Virus record (IMG/VR): IMGVR_UViG_3300009610_000106
Coordinates: 1 to 20,118 of that record
Strand: one strand, 5' to 3'
Length of the DNA stretch: 20,118 bases
DNA from: a virus
The notes beneath the pieces are model-generated. The model was not told the origin of the DNA. It saw nothing but the letters and a program-made list of their open reading frames with translations, and did no database searches. The position numbers and the translations under genes are program-made. Below are positions 494-11,563 of this stretch, in pieces (position 1 is the first letter of the stretch; every line of letters starts with the position of its first letter).

Positions 494-957
494 TCCGGGA
501 GCCCATCCGGCGTGAAGTCGTGTTCGACGAACCAGGCCAGCAGGTCCTCCGTCGTGGAGCCGATCAGGCGGGACGCCCCAGTCCCGGCCAGCAGCCAGCG
601 GGCCCGGTCCTTGACGTCGGGCAGGCGCATCACGACGTAGTGGTACTCGGTCTCGCCGTCGTGGATGGTGAAGCCGACAGCGTCGGTCGTGTTGGGCAAG
701 GCGTCGTCGAGGGGGTATTCGTCCCAGGCTGCGTAGAGGCGATCGAGGCGTTCGCGCTCGCGCTTCTCCTTGCGTTCGTCAGCGATCTTCTGGGCGGTGG
801 ACATGGGTGGGGTCTCCTTGGTTGGGGTCCACTGACCGTCGATGATCAGTGGGTAGGTGGTGCAGCCGCCGTTGGCGTACGTGTAGGTCGGGCCGGTGGT
901 GTGGGTGTGGCTGGTGTTCCACGGCAGCGGGCCGAGGGTGGGTTCTCCGTAGCTCAT
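490..957 (-). CDS. Hypothetical protein with alternative internal start (155 or 104 aa)
   Basis: I do not recognise this protein. ATG at 957 overlaps the HNH stop as ATGA and has GGAG about nine bases upstream, giving 155 residues. A second ATG at 804 (residue 52) has an even better AAGGAG about nine bases upstream and would give 104 residues. Residues 1-50 are Thr/Pro/Tyr/Gly-rich and low in charge. Residues 52-80 form a strongly charged helix (DERKEKRERERLDRLY). The rest is a mixed alpha/beta domain with YHYVVMRLPD and a C-terminal helix (TTEDLLAWFVEHDF). Either one gene with a disordered N-terminus or two nested products is possible. The stop overlaps the next start (ATGA). Confidence 0.75.
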   Translation of the reverse strand: MSYGEPTLGPLPWNTSHTHTTGPTYTYANGGCTTYPLIIDGQWTPTKETPPMSTAQKIADERKEKRERERLDRLYAAWDEYPLDDALPNTTDAVGFTIHDGETEYHYVVMRLPDVKDRARWLLAGTGASRLIGSTTEDLLAWFVEHDFTPDGLPE

Positions 958-1571
958 TCGATGTGGCTCCATCTCTGTCGGTGGACGATCTTGAAGATCG
1001 CTGCGTTCTTGACGCCGAACTGCTTGGCGAGGGCGTGTTGGGAGTGCTCGCCCGTTGCCCACAGACGGCGGATCTCCCGCACGTCGTCTTCGGTCAGGCG
1101 GGCGGAGGGGTGATCTTCACCCTTGAAGCCGTTGACCGGGGGCCTGCTGTTGCGTCGCTTGGCAACCATGTCGGCGTTGTTCTCCTTGACGGTGCCGATC
1201 TTCAAGTGATCGACCCGGTAGCACAAGCGGTTGTCACACAAGTGCAACACGACCTCGGTCTGGCGGAGGGGGCGACCCATCACCTGCGTCATCGTCCAGC
1301 GATGCATCGTCACTGGTTCCCACTTGCCGTCCCGGCGCTGCACTCGCTTGCGGCCGTAGCCGTAGCGGTCGACCGGCCCCTGCCACAGCCGACACGGGGT
1401 CGGCTGTGGCGTGGGGGAGGGGAAGTCGATCAGGCGGCGGACGATCACCAGGCGGCGACCCTTGTTGCGGGCCGTCTTCAAGGTGAGATGCCGTTGACGG
1501 GCCACTTCACGCTGAGGATCGGTGGGCATCCTCAGCTTGATGGTGGGCGTCAGCCGCCTGATCTCGACCAT
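954..1571 (-). CDS. HNH endonuclease with C-terminal helix-turn-helix
   Basis: This 205-residue protein is a phage-type HNH endonuclease of the HNH_3/homing kind, expected to nick or cut double-stranded DNA at a specific site. The nuclease core starts at C60 (CRLWQG) and runs through YGYGR, MHRW (H90), VVLHLCDN (H110, D113, N114), C117 and DHLKIGT (H122), followed by the usual helix NNADMVAKRR at 131-140. The common C-V-N-P-x-H segment here reads C-Y-R-V-D-H. Residues 159-203 form a DNA-binding unit: a first helix (DDVREIRRL) and a helix-turn-helix with LAKQFGVKNAAIFKI. ATG 1571 overlaps the previous stop by one base (TGATG) with GAGGA just upstream. It sits inside the recombination operon, as free-standing HNH genes often do. 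Confidence 0.9.
   Translation of the reverse strand: MVEIRRLTPTIKLRMPTDPQREVARQRHLTLKTARNKGRRLVIVRRLIDFPSPTPQPTPCRLWQGPVDRYGYGRKRVQRRDGKWEPVTMHRWTMTQVMGRPLRQTEVVLHLCDNRLCYRVDHLKIGTVKENNADMVAKRRNSRPPVNGFKGEDHPSARLTEDDVREIRRLWATGEHSQHALAKQFGVKNAAIFKIVHRQRWSHIE
1382..1410. repeat. Perfect 12-bp inverted repeat inside the HNH gene
   Basis: Bases 1382-1393 (GCCACAGCCGAC) and 1399-1410 are exact reverse complements, separated by the five bases ACGGG. The repeat lies within the HNH coding sequence, over codons for TPQPTPCRLW, where the Pro-rich linker meets the nuclease core. No T-tract follows on either strand, so it does not look like a standard terminator. Confidence 0.75.
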
Positions 1572-2210: not shown

Positions 2211-2353
2211 CAGTGGGTTGTCCAGGCGTCGATGTCGGCGCATGGGCAGTAGTTGGCGCCGTAGTACTGACATTTGGTGTTGGTGCACGGCGGTTCGGGC
2301 GCGGTGACTTTCTGCCACCAACGGCGGAGCCGTCCGGGGCGCTTGGCGCTCAT
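2210..2353 (-). CDS. Cysteine-rich small protein (47 aa)
   Basis: This short gene fills an otherwise unexplained 143-base gap in the leftward operon. ATG 2353 overlaps the nuclease stop by one base (TGATG) and its own TGA overlaps the next ATG by one base in the same way. The product has a basic N-terminus (MSAKRPGRLRRWWQKV) followed by a cysteine cluster: C23, C28, C36 and C38, spaced CX4C-X7-CXC, with aromatic residues between (QYYGANY). Four cysteines at this spacing could bind a zinc ion. The basic segment would suit nucleic acid binding. No family is recognised. The exact fit between its neighbours and the absence of any other reading frame here support it as real. Confidence 0.7.
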   Translation of the reverse strand: MSAKRPGRLRRWWQKVTAPEPPCTNTKCQYYGANYCPCADIDAWTTH

Positions 2354-3528
2354 CAGTGGGGCTCGACCTTCGAGCGGTGGACTCCGGGCTCGCCCCGGGG
2401 GTCCGGCAGGAAGGGCAACGAGAAGTCGGCCTCGACCTTGTCGAGCACGTCGAGCACGGCCAGCACCTGGCCCGGGACCGACAGCCCCTGCTTAGGCGTC
2501 GGTACCCCGGCAGGCCACTTCAAGATCAGGCGCTCTTTGGCCTTCTCATGACGGCCGATCTGCTCGACCCGGATACGCACGTACTCGATGAGGGCCGGGA
2601 CCATCTCCTGGTCGATCTCCACCGTCGCATCGAACTCCTCGATGATCGCATCCACCGGCAGCGGGATCGGGACCCCGTCGTACTCACCGTTCTTCCACTT
2701 CTTGCGCCACTGCTTGACCTCCTGGGCGATCCACGCCCCGTAGACGCCGAGCTCGATCGACACCCACTGCAACTCGCAGCGCCCCTGCCCGACCGGCAGG
2801 TGGACCAGGATCGCCCAGTCCCCGTTGATCGGTGGGGTGGGGAGGCGGCGTTGCGTGGCCAGGTCGTACAGCGTGCCGGTGGCGTACAAGGCCAGTTGGA
2901 TGGCGTAACCGGGCAGCGAGAAGTCGAACTTCTGGCCCGTCTTCAAGTCGCCCAACACCAACTGTCCAGCGGGGATCACACCGCTTGGCGTCGTCAGGTC
3001 CTTGGTCAGGCGGTAGATGCGGTCGGCCGTGCCCGCCGCCCGGAAGTTGTCGTTGACCATCGGGCACTCGAACATCTCCGACACCAGGCCGAAGGTGGCC
3101 AGGCAGTCGCGGTAGGCGTCCAGGTCGGCTTGGAACGGCTCGCCCGGATCGAAGTCGACGTCGGTGGCGTCCTCGGCCCGCACCGTCATGGCGTGCAGGG
3201 CGGTGCCCATGTCAGCGGCCTCGTTGGCGGTGCCCTTGTCGAGGGCCTTGTCGCGCAGGCGGCGCTTCTCCTCCTTGTCCTCGTCCTTGCAGGCCTTGAT
3301 CTCAGCGGCCAGCGACGGTGACGAGGCCACGCCGTTCATCGCCTTGAAGATCCGCCAGTTGGTCAGCGCCTCCTCGTCGTCCAGCGGCTTGCCGTAGGAC
3401 GAGGGACGGCTGTAGCGCTGCCATTTGTCCGGGTGCTCCGGATCCGACACCATCGGGGCGCCGTTGGCACGGCGGTAGTCCAGCTTCCCCTCGTTGGGGT
3501 CGCTCAGGTCATCCAGGTCAACGGCCAT
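2353..3528 (-). CDS. RecB/Cas4-type PD-(D/E)XK nuclease
   Basis: This 391-residue protein has the ordered motifs of the RecB/Cas4-like branch of PD-(D/E)XK nucleases, which cut or resect DNA with divalent metal ions. Motif I is GTALHAM with H112. A Glu-containing strand (FECPMV, E154) is followed by AGTADRI with D169. The DXK signature is LGDLKTG with D194 and K196, and the Q-motif is QLALYA with Q211. Before the core, residues 75-105 are charged and helical. After it, residues 235-262 add strands (WAILVHLPVG) and the tail is helical. In the phage it likely acts in recombination or replication, alongside the resolvase and SSB-like protein. ATG 3528 overlaps the preceding gene by 11 bases. No helicase or cysteine-cluster Fe-S motif is seen. 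Confidence 0.88.
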   Translation of the reverse strand: MAVDLDDLSDPNEGKLDYRRANGAPMVSDPEHPDKWQRYSRPSSYGKPLDDEEALTNWRIFKAMNGVASSPSLAAEIKACKDEDKEEKRRLRDKALDKGTANEAADMGTALHAMTVRAEDATDVDFDPGEPFQADLDAYRDCLATFGLVSEMFECPMVNDNFRAAGTADRIYRLTKDLTTPSGVIPAGQLVLGDLKTGQKFDFSLPGYAIQLALYATGTLYDLATQRRLPTPPINGDWAILVHLPVGQGRCELQWVSIELGVYGAWIAQEVKQWRKKWKNGEYDGVPIPLPVDAIIEEFDATVEIDQEMVPALIEYVRIRVEQIGRHEKAKERLILKWPAGVPTPKQGLSVPGQVLAVLDVLDKVEADFSLPFLPDPRGEPGVHRSKVEPH

Positions 3529-3709
3529 CGGTCAGGTGTCCCATCAGTTCTCGGGCGTAGGCGTCAGCGATCTCACCGATCTTCGGGTCGTTGCACTCCC
3601 CGAAGACCTCGTACAGGATGCGCGCGAGGGTGCGCGTGGTGTCGTCGACGTCGGAGCGCATGATGCGGCTGAGCACAGCCATCCAGGGCACTTCCATCAG
3701 CGCGTTCAC
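3518..3709 (-). CDS. Small helical protein (63 aa)
   Basis: I do not recognise this protein. GTG 3709 overlaps the resolvase stop as GTGA and has GGAAGG about five bases upstream, which supports it as the start. The product looks all-helical: VPWMAVLSRIMRS, DDTTRTLARILYEVFGE, then KIGEIADAYARELMGHL. It has one cysteine and no membrane segment. It might be a small accessory partner to the resolvase or nuclease between which it lies, but this is inferred from position only. Confidence 0.65.
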   Translation of the reverse strand: MNALMEVPWMAVLSRIMRSDVDDTTRTLARILYEVFGECNDPKIGEIADAYARELMGHLTDGR

Positions 3710-4170
3710 GAAGCCTTCCGCAGGTAGTTGAGTTGGTAGGCCCGGGCGATCAGGGCGGCGTCAGCACGCCCGTCGTCCTTGACACGCTTGAAGCTGCCGG
3801 AGTAGGCGGGCCACAACTCAGAGGCCAGCGCCCGTGAGGCGTCCTTGCCCGGACGGCCGAGGATCCCGTTGATCTTCTTCCACTCCTGCGGGCGCAGGCG
3901 GGTCATCGGCAAGCCGAGGGACCCGATGACACCGAGCAGGATGCCCGTGTTCATTCCCAGCGAGAAGGTGGCCTTACAGCCGTTCTTCGGCATCGGCTGG
4001 GTCTGCTCGACGACCACCACATCGGGCTTGATGTGCTTCAAGAACTCATGGACGAGTTGCGCGTCGACCCGCCCGTCCCACACCGGCATGTCGACGATGT
4101 TGATCGGGCCGAGATCACTGAGCACGACCAGGGCCCCGGTCAGGCCGGGGTCGATCCCCATGATCTTCAT
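3706..4170 (-). CDS. RuvC-like Holliday junction resolvase
   Basis: This 154-residue protein is a RuvC-type resolvase of the RNase H fold, about the family's usual size. It would cut Holliday junctions or other branched DNA before packaging. The catalytic acids are visible: D7 in MGIDPGLTGA, E55 in VVVVEQ, and D132, D133 and D137 in KDDGRADAALIA. The Gly/Met-rich central helix (LGMNTGILLGVIGSLG) fits the family. The frame is open to 4347, but the extra N-terminal sequence is a shadow of upstream genes; ATG 4170 directly precedes the first catalytic strand and overlaps the tiny membrane-peptide gene as ATGA. It is one of the first genes of the leftward operon. Confidence 0.92.
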   Translation of the reverse strand: MKIMGIDPGLTGALVVLSDLGPINIVDMPVWDGRVDAQLVHEFLKHIKPDVVVVEQTQPMPKNGCKATFSLGMNTGILLGVIGSLGLPMTRLRPQEWKKINGILGRPGKDASRALASELWPAYSGSFKRVKDDGRADAALIARAYQLNYLRKAS

Positions 4171-4247
4171 GACCGCACCATGTTCACGATCGTCCCGCCG
4201 AGGAAGCAGAGGCTGCCGAGGGCGTACAGGATGTTCGCGAGCGTCAT
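4167..4247 (-). CDS. 26-residue single-pass membrane peptide
   Basis: This very small gene lies exactly between two longer ones. ATG 4247 overlaps the RHH stop (ATGA) and its TGA overlaps the RuvC ATG (ATGA). The peptide begins MTLANILYALGSLCFLGG, continues TIVNMVRS, and is almost entirely hydrophobic apart from one Arg near the C-terminus. That is the pattern of one transmembrane helix with a short basic tail. No known family is recognised. It could be a membrane-acting toxin-like or host-modifying peptide, or serve mainly as a translational coupler between the neighbours. Exact overlap at both ends makes chance less likely. Confidence 0.6.
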   Translation of the reverse strand: MTLANILYALGSLCFLGGTIVNMVRS

Positions 4248-4432
4248 GCGCTGATCTCTTCGGGCTCCTCGACGGACTTCGGCGGTCGGGGCGGGTAGGC
4301 CATCTTGATCGCGTCCATGATCGTGCGGGTGATCGGCGTCTTGGCATCCCGCAGCAGTTGCTCGCGGTACCAGAACGGCATTCGGACCGACACCTGCACG
4401 GGCAGGGTCCGGGGATCTCTGCTGTGGGTCAT
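4244..4432 (-). CDS. Putative ribbon-helix-helix DNA-binding protein
   Basis: This 62-residue protein is the first gene of the leftward operon. Its pattern fits the ribbon-helix-helix (Arc/MetJ) fold: a strand with alternating residues (PVQVSVRMP, about 11-19), a first helix (FWYREQLLRDA, 20-30), a turn, and a second helix (ITRTIMDAIKMAY, 34-46). An acidic, Pro-rich tail follows. Such proteins usually act as dimers on short palindromes and often repress their own promoter. The position beside a palindromic operator suggests that role, but this is inference. ATG 4432 lies six bases from a TAGCAT -10 element, so the message may be leaderless; the only GGGG is too near the start to be a normal ribosome binding site. 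Confidence 0.72.
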   Translation of the reverse strand: MTHSRDPRTLPVQVSVRMPFWYREQLLRDAKTPITRTIMDAIKMAYPPRPPKSVEEPEEISA

Positions 4433-4438
4433 GCCCCT

Positions 4439-4468
4439 ATGCTACCCCCCCTGGGGGGGAACAGGCAA
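4439..4468 (-). promoter_or_regulatory. Leftward early promoter, probably leaderless
   Basis: Read on the minus strand, TTGCCT (4468-4463) is followed by an 18-base spacer and TAGCAT (4444-4439). Six bases then separate the -10 element from the ATG at 4432, so transcription is expected to begin at or near the start codon. The -10 has the TANNNT form usual in actinobacteria. The -35 is moderate. The spacer is mostly a G7/C7 tract. Confidence 0.6.
4445..4459. repeat. C7-T-G7 homopolymer palindrome in promoter spacer
   Basis: Seven C (4445-4451), one T, then seven G (4453-4459) form a mirror-complementary tract. It occupies 15 of the 18 bases between the proposed leftward -35 and -10 elements. 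Tracts of this type can slip during replication, which would change spacer length, though no variant can be seen in a single sequence. Confidence 0.7.
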
Positions 4469-4484
4469 TGTGACATTCGTCACA
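4469..4484. promoter_or_regulatory. Palindromic operator, CRP/GlxR-like TGTGA-N6-TCACA
   Basis: TGTGACATTCGTCACA is a perfect inverted repeat (TGTGAC / GTCACA, four bases between) and matches the CRP-family consensus TGTGA-N6-TCACA, used by GlxR/Crp regulators in actinobacteria. Its centre (4476.5) is 44.5 bases from the leftward start codon and 45.5 from the rightward one. It directly abuts the leftward -35 element. It may be bound by a host CRP-type regulator or by a phage protein such as the adjacent RHH protein. No CRP homologue is encoded in the window. Confidence 0.65.
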
Positions 4485-4509
4485 CTCGAGCGGGGCTTGG
4501 TGGTCGAAG

Positions 4510-4515
4510 TACCAT
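4510..4515 (+). promoter_or_regulatory. Rightward -10 element, probably leaderless late promoter
   Basis: TACCAT at 4510-4515 lies exactly six bases before the GTG at 4522, the same geometry as the leftward promoter. There is no recognisable -35 hexamer 16-18 bases upstream, so an activator may be needed. It would drive the whole packaging and structural run. Confidence 0.5.
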
Positions 4516-4521
4516 GTCAAC

Positions 4522-4962
4522 GTGGCAGAGGTCCCGATCACGGACTGGCGGAAGCAAGAGTTCCTCGCCTGGCTCTGTACCCCTGAGCCTGATCGGGACC
4601 CTGCCCTCATGAAGGATCTGGCACCCAGGCTCGGTGTCGAGCCCAAGACACTGAGTTCCTGGAAGCGTGATGATGACTTCCTGGCGGAGTGGGAGAAGCT
4701 GTACCGGCGGACCATCGGCAGCCCCGAGAAGATGCGCCAGGTCACCGACGCTCTCCATGAGACAGCCAGGGACCGCACCGACCCTCGTCAGGTCCAGGCC
4801 GCCCGTGCCTACGCCGACATCGTCGATGCCGCCAAGCCGAAGAAGATCGACGTCAACGTCAACCAGACCCAGGCTCGCGACCTGAGCGACGACACGCTGC
4901 TGGCGATCCTCGCTGAGCGGGCGGCGGTCGAACTCGAACAGCGCAAGCCCACCGATGCCTGA
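4522..4962 (+). CDS. terS: Putative terminase small subunit
   Basis: This 146-residue protein opens the rightward operon and precedes TerL by one gene. Residues 8-20 form a first helix, and 29-49 look like a helix-turn-helix (MKDLAPRLGVEPKTLSSWK), followed by the recognition-type phrase DDDFLAEWEKLYRR seen in phage small terminase proteins. Residues 70-110 are helical and would serve oligomerisation. The C-terminus is an acidic helix ending KPTDA. TerS recognises the phage DNA and delivers it to TerL. GTG 4522 was chosen for its position six bases after the -10; no Shine-Dalgarno is seen, which fits a leaderless message. The small terminase call rests on fold pattern and context, as this family is poorly conserved. 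Confidence 0.75.
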   Translation: MAEVPITDWRKQEFLAWLCTPEPDRDPALMKDLAPRLGVEPKTLSSWKRDDDFLAEWEKLYRRTIGSPEKMRQVTDALHETARDRTDPRQVQAARAYADIVDAAKPKKIDVNVNQTQARDLSDDTLLAILAERAAVELEQRKPTDA

Positions 4963-5446
4963 CATCTCGATCGGCTTCCAGCCACGCACCCGACAGCCCG
5001 AGCGCCGGGCGTTCATGGACCTGTTGCGCCGGGACGCAGCCGTTGTCAACGCGATCGACGCCACCAACGCTGCTGTCGCGGTCCATGAAACCCGGCTCGA
5101 TGCCCTCGACGAGATGCCCTGGATCTACGTTGACCAGACCATCGGGGCGCCGCTGTTCACCAACTCATGGGTCAACTTCGACGCCGAGCCCTCCGAGCGC
5201 AACGTCGCCTTCCGCTTGATGCGGGGGTATGTGGAGATGAAGGGCCTGCTGTCGGGCGGCACCGTCAACGCCACCATGTTCACGCTCCCCGTTGGGTACC
5301 GGCCGATCGGCAACCGTCACTTCCCGGTGATCGCTAACAGCCTCTTCGCCAACCTGCGAGTGGGGTCTGACGGGCAGATTCAGATCCCGTCAGCCGGATC
5401 GAACGTCTTCGTTGATCTCGGCCCTGTTCGCTTCGACCTGCCATGA
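4955..5446 (+). CDS. Fibre-like protein between terminase genes
   Basis: This 163-residue protein has a helical N-terminal half (DLLRRDAAVVNAIDATNAAV, about 22-52) likely to form a coiled coil, then a beta-rich domain from 58 to the end. The end domain carries phrases typical of phage tail-fibre or receptor-binding heads: YVEMKGLLSGGTVNATMF, LPVGYRP, then HFPVIAN, ANLRVGSDGQIQI and a final FVDLG strand. It is therefore likely a trimeric fibre, spike or head-decoration protein. Its place between the two terminase genes is unusual, as fibres normally lie with tail genes. It overlaps terS by eight bases and terL by four (ATGA), so it is part of the same translational chain. Whether it is on the tail or capsid cannot be told. 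Confidence 0.78.
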   Translation: MPDISIGFQPRTRQPERRAFMDLLRRDAAVVNAIDATNAAVAVHETRLDALDEMPWIYVDQTIGAPLFTNSWVNFDAEPSERNVAFRLMRGYVEMKGLLSGGTVNATMFTLPVGYRPIGNRHFPVIANSLFANLRVGSDGQIQIPSAGSNVFVDLGPVRFDLP

Positions 5447-7080
5447 GCGCTGAGCAGATCTCCACCGCGCAACTCCTGGAGGAGCGCGAGTGGCGGCGTT
5501 GCGCGCCCGACACCCGCGACCCGCAGAAGCTGCTCGAAGCCTTCGAGTACTTCTGCTGGAACTACTGCCACATCAAGCACCCCGACCGGGGGCGCATCAA
5601 GTTCGAGTTGTTCGACTCACAGGTCGACTCGGTCAACCTGTGGATCCGCTCCCGCTACAGCCTGATGTTGAAGGCCAGGCAGTTGGGGTTCTCGACGCTC
5701 GTCGCCGTCTACGCCTTCTGGCTGGCCTTCTTCTACGAGGACCGCGTCGTCATCATGCTGTCGAGGACCGAGCGCGAAGCCATCAAGCTGCTGCAGAAGT
5801 CGAAGTACGTCTACCGCTTCCTGCCTGAGTGGATGAAGTTCCGGGGTCCCCCAATGAACGCCACCCAGACCAAGATGGAGTTCTCCAACGAGTCCTACAT
5901 CGAGTCGATGCCCTCGGCGTCGGACCCCGCCCGTGGCGAGTCCGTGTACCTGGCGATCATCGACGAGTTGGCCTACCTCCCCAACAGCGAGGAAGCGTGG
6001 GCCTCGATCGAGCCCATCGCTGACGTCGGTGGCCGGATCATCGCCCTTTCCACAGCCAACGGCGAAGGCAACCTGTTCCACCAACTGTGGGTCGGGGCCG
6101 AGACCAAGAACAACCGGTTCAAGGCGATGTTCCACCCGTGGTGGGCGAACGGGCGTACCCAGGAGTGGTATGACGAGAAGTCCCTTGATCTGCCCGACTG
6201 GCAGATGGCTCAGGAGTACCCCGACAACCCCGAAGATGCCTTCCTGCGTTCCGGTCGTCCCGTCTTCTCGCTCGACGTGGTGCGCGCCATCACGCCGCGC
6301 GACCCCATCATCTGCGGGTACTTCCGTCCCTCCAACGGGGAGTTCGTCCCCGACGATGGCGGCCCGTTGAAGGTGTGGGCGCTGCCCGCTCCCGACGGCA
6401 AGTACGCCATCGGGGCCGACCCGGCGATGGGTCTCGAACACGGGGACTTCACCAGCGTCCACGTCATCAACGCTCGCAATGGCGAGGTCGTCGCCCACTG
6501 GCACGGGCGCATCGATACCGACCTGCTGGCTACCGACGTCCTCATCCCGCTCGGCAACTGGTACCACCGCGCTCTCATCGGCGTGGAGAACAACAACCAC
6601 GGTCTGACCACCGTCGTCACCCTCTCCAAGAAGCGGTACCACCCGATCTTCATGCAGCGGTCCCCGCGCTACAAGCGGTCGAAGCCGACCGACATCCTCG
6701 GTTGGCGGACGTCGTCGATCTCGAAGCCCGTGGCCATCGATGAACTCGGGGCCAACCTGCGTGATGGCACGATCAAGCTGTTCTGCGCTGACACCATCGC
6801 TGAACTCCGCACCTTCGTGCGCAACGACGCCGGGAAGATGACCGGCTCGCCCTACGACGACCGGACGATGAGCCTGGCGATCGCCAACCAGATGATCAAG
6901 TTCGTCTTCTTGAAGCAGTATCAGCCTGAGTTGGAGCCTGGACCTGGCACGATGGGGTGGATGGAGAAGATCCTCTACGGTGATGATCTGTTCTCCAACA
7001 TGACCACCAGGAAGCGGCCGCCCGAACCGGAGCCGATCGGCAAGCAGTTCGTTCGCAAGGACGAGCCAAAGCGGAGGTAA
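5443..7080 (+). CDS. terL: Terminase large subunit (ATPase and nuclease)
   Basis: This 545-residue protein is the packaging motor and nuclease that pumps DNA into the prohead through the portal. The ATPase has a Walker A-like motif at about 77-86 (KARQLGFST), a Walker B at 168-175 (VYLAIIDE, with D174 and E175) and the coupling motif at 202-208 (LSTANGE). The RNase H-like nuclease domain starts near 320 with D326 (AIGADPAMG), E382 (IGVENNNHG) and D472/D473 (SPYDDRTMS). The length is normal for the family and all key residues are present. The C-terminal 30 residues are basic and Pro-rich. ATG 5443 overlaps the previous stop as ATGA. Confidence 0.96.
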   Translation: MSAEQISTAQLLEEREWRRCAPDTRDPQKLLEAFEYFCWNYCHIKHPDRGRIKFELFDSQVDSVNLWIRSRYSLMLKARQLGFSTLVAVYAFWLAFFYEDRVVIMLSRTEREAIKLLQKSKYVYRFLPEWMKFRGPPMNATQTKMEFSNESYIESMPSASDPARGESVYLAIIDELAYLPNSEEAWASIEPIADVGGRIIALSTANGEGNLFHQLWVGAETKNNRFKAMFHPWWANGRTQEWYDEKSLDLPDWQMAQEYPDNPEDAFLRSGRPVFSLDVVRAITPRDPIICGYFRPSNGEFVPDDGGPLKVWALPAPDGKYAIGADPAMGLEHGDFTSVHVINARNGEVVAHWHGRIDTDLLATDVLIPLGNWYHRALIGVENNNHGLTTVVTLSKKRYHPIFMQRSPRYKRSKPTDILGWRTSSISKPVAIDELGANLRDGTIKLFCADTIAELRTFVRNDAGKMTGSPYDDRTMSLAIANQMIKFVFLKQYQPELEPGPGTMGWMEKILYGDDLFSNMTTRKRPPEPEPIGKQFVRKDEPKRR

Positions 7081-11529: not shown

Positions 11530-11563
11530 GCCCGGCCCTAAGCACCCGTGCTTAGGGCCGGGC
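11530..11563. terminator. Perfect 16-bp hairpin after major capsid gene
   Basis: GCCCGGCCCTAAGCAC (11530-11545) and its exact reverse complement (11548-11563) are separated by two bases, so the realistic loop is about 4-8 bases. It is the only strong hairpin in a gap on the right arm. No T-tract follows on either strand. It may act as a partial terminator, or protect the 3' end of the capsid message, as hairpins after phage capsid genes often do. Confidence 0.7.

Follow-up and report, generated by a model that had tools for sequence, protein, structure and literature searches.

Actinobacteria possess regulators of the Crp/GlxR family, and a palindromic operator lying between divergent promoters, beside the gene of a small RHH protein, is known from the immI region of phage P22 (Mnt). 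In C. glutamicum, promoters controlled by GlxR carry the exact motif TGTGA-N6-TCACA upstream of a -35/-10 promoter (PMC7999487, PMC4254451); the GlxR consensus is TGTGANNTANNTCACA and the protein is mostly an activator (PMC4254451). Host Crp can also act directly on phage promoters, as in phage T1, whose pir, dam and recE promoters are under host cAMP-CRP (PMC6737242). Cluster O mycobacteriophages such as Corndog have divergent leaderless SigA promoters (PL1 and PR2) and more than 30 dispersed copies of a palindrome that has one sequence throughout the cluster (PMC4351075). In phage BPs, repressor sites are dispersed and an operator lies between divergent promoters (PMC4557955), and the stoperators of Cluster A phages are asymmetric, phage-specific dispersed sites whose sequence varies between related phages (PMC6550527).

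The DNA analysed here (the window, meaning the whole stretch of 20,118 bases) is a fragment from an IMG/VR virus record in which a leftward and a rightward arm of genes diverge from an 89-bp gap (Table 1). We interpret these 89 bp as the control region from which both arms of a tailed phage, uncultivated and probably actinobacterial, are transcribed. Beyond terS and TerL the rightward arm continues with portal and capsid genes, and the GTG at 4522 is the sole in-frame start of terS, the frame being closed at 4471. The host is probably actinobacterial, judging from a single gene, the exonuclease, whose named phage relatives nearly all infect Actinobacteria; a search of bacterial genomes with TerL gave no match.

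As in the GlxR promoters of C. glutamicum, an exact match to the GlxR motif stands in the gap upstream of a -35/-10 promoter; unlike them, the candidate site in the window belongs to a phage, has leaderless promoters diverging on either side and carries TT rather than TA at its centre. The likeness to T1 would lie in the direct action of a host Crp at promoters of a phage, T1 differing as an enterobacterial phage with repression and another promoter layout. Divergent leaderless promoters are shared with Cluster O, whose dispersed palindromes also have counterparts in relatives of the window, but the palindrome in the window itself is single-copy and Crp-like. The region likewise resembles that of BPs, and the dispersed sites of relatives resemble stoperators in being phage-specific; stoperators are asymmetric, unlike the palindromes here, for which no repressor was identified. 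With P22 immI the locus shares a small RHH gene beside a palindrome between divergent promoters, the two proteins being only distantly homologous and no operator having been assigned to the one here. Our literature search gave no publication describing Crp/GlxR sites in promoters of actinophages, and we know of no description of a Crp-type site among several interchangeable operators of one phage family.

Table 1. Features of the window and groups of loci carrying comparable sites.
Feature	Position	Strand	Remarks
HNH	954-1571		leftward arm
Exonuclease	2353-3528		leftward arm
RuvC-like	3706-4167		leftward arm
RHH-like (Arc/Mnt-like) protein	4244..4432	-	62 aa; first gene of leftward arm; 35 nonredundant loci have a homologue next to terS
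Leftward -10, TAGCAT	4439..4444 (read 4444-4439)	-	ends six bases before ATG; conserved in 35/35 loci
C7-T-G7 perfect inverted repeat	4445..4459		fills leftward -35/-10 spacer
Putative leftward -35, TTGCCT	4463..4468 (read 4468-4463)	-	4/6 of TTGACA; 18-bp spacer; abuts palindrome
Crp/GlxR-type palindrome, TGTGA-N6-TCACA	4468..4485, core 4469-4484		18-mer ATGTGACATTCGTCACAC common to L172, L175, L173, L177, L186
Rightward -10, TACCAT	4510..4515	+	ends six bases before GTG; without -35
Terminase small subunit (terS)	4522..4962	+	first gene of rightward (late) arm; PHROG 2538, E=2e-5; alignment
Terminase large subunit (TerL)	5443..7080	+	PHROG 2, Pfam PF03237; query used for relatives
Palindrome after capsid gene, GCCCGGCCCTAAGCAC-CC-GTGCTTAGGGCCGGGC	11530-11563		34 bp; single copy in window
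ATGTGAC-N4-GTCACAC 10 bp before promoter, unrelated phages			L173, L177, L186, L256, L264, L268, L283, L289, L315
Dispersed-palindrome loci			G007: L140, L141, L057; G008: L056, L138, L139; G004: L142-L144, L052; G010: L146, L051, L147; G020: L162, L163; G014: L150

The palindrome, TGTGACATTCGTCACA, has no mismatch to TGTGA-N6-TCACA and is the sole match in the window even when two mismatches are allowed. Its centre at 4476.5 lies 44.5 bases from the A of the leftward ATG (4432) and 45.5 from the G of the GTG, and it is 25 bp from the rightward -10. A sequence-only reading of the gap had already described the perfect site, this centring and a TANNNT element, the actinobacterial -10 form, six bases before each start, and all of its coordinates are right. 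Overlooked by that reading were the leftward -35 and the C7-T-G7 inverted repeat, which we take to resemble the G-tract operators of the CsoR kind and which is not conserved among relatives.

Single-protein searches with terS and with the RHH protein returned no relatives, and both TerL and an alignment were needed: the TerL query gave 49 relatives in IMG/VR and the terS alignment 80 loci. In 35 nonredundant loci, the window counted in, an RHH-like gene and terS are divergent neighbours, and the other 34 loci are the nearest syntenic relatives of the window. TANNNT is found 6-7 nt before the ATG of the RHH gene in 35/35 loci, a count in which the choice of ATG was partly guided by the motif itself; if the most upstream ATG is used regardless of the motif, a peak at a distance of six bases is still seen (23/35). 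A leftward -35 with at least 5/6 matches to TTGACA at 15-19 bp is present in 69% of the 35 loci versus 1% of random places, the relatives mostly having TTGACA or a near match with a 16-18 bp spacer. On the terS side, -10-like elements (CATACT, CATAAT or CACAAT) mostly lie 6-9 nt before the start, and a -35 reaching 5/6 or better occurs in only 2% of relatives and not in the window. The leftward promoter is, by its elements, of the leaderless SigA type with a -10 and a -35, and its transcripts are predicted to begin without a leader. Since the promoters are conserved among relatives on both sides of the gap, the divergent leaderless layout proposed earlier appears to be real. Equal, symmetric control of the two arms, which had been proposed along with it, finds no support, since a -35 is present on the left and absent on the right.

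The palindrome between these promoters could be a chance or functionless resemblance, the two promoters alone being of importance. Perfect palindromes with 6-bp arms of any sequence are found in 6% of shuffles and at 16-23% of random places, and TGTGA-N6-TCACA with at most one mismatch occurs in 0/34 of the nearest syntenic relatives, so that conservation in close relatives, by which the sequence-only reading had proposed to judge the site, is absent. The exact consensus, however, is expected (with independent bases) only 0.006 times per window and 2e-5 times in the 89-bp gap. A chance origin is also at odds with the recurrence of the site upstream of terS in distant members of the family and with its fixed spacing to the -35 in other phages, and we regard it as improbable.

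This recurrence was followed in viral contigs. The exact 16-mer is present in 35 contigs of IMG/VR, by our estimate roughly the chance number for such a collection. Two of them (L172 and L175) belong to the same terminase family as the window (TerL 57%) and carry the site in a noncoding stretch upstream of terS, at a distance of about 450 bp; its orientation and its outer bases (A...C) are those of the window site. Among the matches listed for ATGTGAC-N4-GTCACAC, further members of the family (L254/L290, L272, L284 and L220; TerL 43-58%) have the site 0.3-2 kb upstream of the terminase genes; among the matches listed for the reversed control pattern, no TerL relative above 30% identity was found. 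When five control dyads were scanned upstream of terS, four had no exact match and GATGT-N6-ACATC had 3, located 660-1020 bp upstream of terS among leftward genes; the five exact Crp-type matches in this test are not independent, their records having been chosen for carrying the site.

In phages unrelated by terminase, a leftward TTGACA-N17-TANNNT follows the site at a distance of exactly 10 bp in at least 11 cases, 8 of them in the matches listed, the sites having the centres ATTC, TTTT, CTTC, ATCC, GTGT, ATGC, ATTT and TCTC. The reversed control has no 10-bp case among the matches listed, and two -35 boxes nearby lie at unrelated offsets. A fixed distance combined with a variable centre is the trace expected of a dimeric regulator touching RNA polymerase, and the 10-bp-spaced sites may represent a common regulon in phages of Actinobacteria. 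Among the matches listed, 35/111 sites lie outside ORFs of at least 60 aa versus 7/84 for the control. In the window, site and -35 are 0 bp apart, a helical turn short of the 10 bp found elsewhere; this comparison is tentative because the window -35 is weak. Together, the recurrence in distant members and the fixed -35 spacing argue for a real Crp-type site rather than chance.

Palindromes resembling TGTGACAARTGTCACA were also seen in coding DNA, within reading frames with CDKCH motifs in L183 and near 420-600 of L202, where they are repeated. The exact 18-mer gave 5 matches in bacterial genomes against about 7 estimated by chance and is not enriched; as a host-wide site it was rejected at this chance level, although a Crp site need not share its centre.

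A pac site is kept upstream of the small terminase gene in some phages, and the dyad, lying just upstream of terS, might likewise be a packaging (pac/cos-like) recognition site instead of a transcription operator. We consider this very improbable: the same type of site stands at promoters of other phages without this terminase family alongside, and the palindromes that relatives have in the terS-upstream region are scattered along the genome.

The main rival to a Crp-type site is the operator of a phage-encoded regulator, the likeness to Crp sites being coincidental. This regulator would be an unseen phage repressor, or else the Arc/Mnt-like RHH protein encoded next to the gap, which would autoregulate the leftward promoter. 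In favour of this rival, dyads of other kinds occupy the gap in the relatives. Of the 35 loci, 19 have GTTAY pairs close to the leftward -35, patterns that were picked after inspection, versus 0.5 in shuffles, and 5 have GTTAC-N6-GTAAC versus 0 in shuffles; the paired motif is a candidate for the RHH protein's operator. Conservation of the RHH gene next to the gap also fits this rival, as does the match of its family profile to the P22 Mnt repressor (1mnt, E=0.0027). Strong perfect palindromes are found upstream of terS in 51% of relatives versus a background of 3.5-6%. They differ from phage to phage, and several are phage-specific and dispersed; dispersed repressor sites are known from BPs (PMC4557955) and L5 (PMC6550527). 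In five larger records the terS-upstream palindrome recurs genome-wide, with 14 copies of CTGCACGTGCAG in G007, 9 copies in G004, 6-8 in G008, 5 in G010 and about 8 in G020.

Against a phage-encoded regulator, the window has one copy of the palindrome in 20 kb, and the Crp-like dyad was rejected as a dispersed element. The place after the capsid gene, where seven relatives bear their own dispersed palindrome, holds CTAAGCAC-CC-GTGCTTAG in the window, which is different from the Crp-like dyad; the latter is therefore probably not the window's dispersed element. Moreover, the site stands before promoters of phages in which no homologue of the RHH protein was found (tblastn, fetched loci). An operator of a phage-encoded regulator is accordingly a possible reading, to which we give appreciable but minor weight.

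Six relatives (G007, G008, G004, G010, G020 and G014) each have their own perfect palindrome of 16-22 bp in 5-14 copies per genome. Five of these phages have one copy upstream of terS, a copy behind the capsid gene is also frequent, and predicted ORFs contain half of the copies. No CTAAGCAC-N2-GTGCTTAG was found in other viral contigs. In loci L059 to L134 the paired GTTAY of the RHH-terS gap takes the form TATAAC-N3-GTTATA or GTTACC-N4-GGTAAC, near the leftward -35. A ParB/parS or KorB-like reading of the CACGTG-centred palindromes of relatives was rejected, 16 records having no ParB N-domain. Pfam HicB is detected in 15/35 and Arc in 10/35 members of the RHH family, and neither in the window copy; a model of the RHH monomer has two helices (pLDDT 83), and Foldseek gave no match. 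Likewise rejected was the idea that the variable palindromes are read by the RHH protein, which is probably not the case: the presumed DNA-facing strand VTVQLQIRVP is identical in L059 and L079, but their palindromes differ.

The reading we favour, tentatively and at slightly less than an even chance, is that the palindrome is a genuine Crp-type dimer site, most likely read by a host Crp/GlxR-like protein. Its consensus match and its recurrence in distant members and other phages speak for this reading; counting against it are the absence from close relatives, the lack of enrichment of the 18-mer in bacteria, the 0-bp spacing to a -35 of only 4/6, the TT centre and the assignment of the host by a single gene. 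No Crp-type HTH (PF13545) was found in 12 site-bearing phage records, several of them fragments, the control genomes being all positive. The earlier suggestion that a host regulator sets phage timing is plausible in view of the recurrence in distant relatives and at the promoters of unrelated phages.

In this reading, the leaderless SigA-type promoter would start the leftward arm with the RHH, RuvC-like and exonuclease genes, and a leaderless -10 without a -35 would start terS, TerL and the virion genes. The dimer site would adjoin the upstream end of the leftward -35, its centre being at about -44.5; for the rightward promoter, which lacks a -35, it would occupy an activator-like upstream position with the centre at -45.5. 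The likeliest reader would be a host protein of the Crp/GlxR family, coupling phage transcription to the cAMP/nutrient state of the host and probably acting as an activator or modulator and not as a roadblock on the -10; both the protein and the direction of its effect are inferred.

The Crp-type site is probably retained patchily, in a region where operators turn over quickly. A broader proposal, which we put forward as rather unlikely, is that in this uncultivated actinobacterial phage group the operator of the arm switch has been repeatedly replaced, a host Crp/GlxR site in some phages and a phage-specific dispersed perfect palindrome in others, with the leaderless promoters and the gene order kept. 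If host control is true, the main control region would be where phages of Actinobacteria read host Crp/GlxR, and thereby cAMP and carbon state; the constant 10 bp between site and -35 in other phages constitutes a concrete prediction. The contrast with the phage-specific dispersed palindromes of close relatives would make operator turnover directly testable and, should the regulator be phage-encoded, the region would remain a promising starting point for identifying the repressor of an uncultivated phage family.
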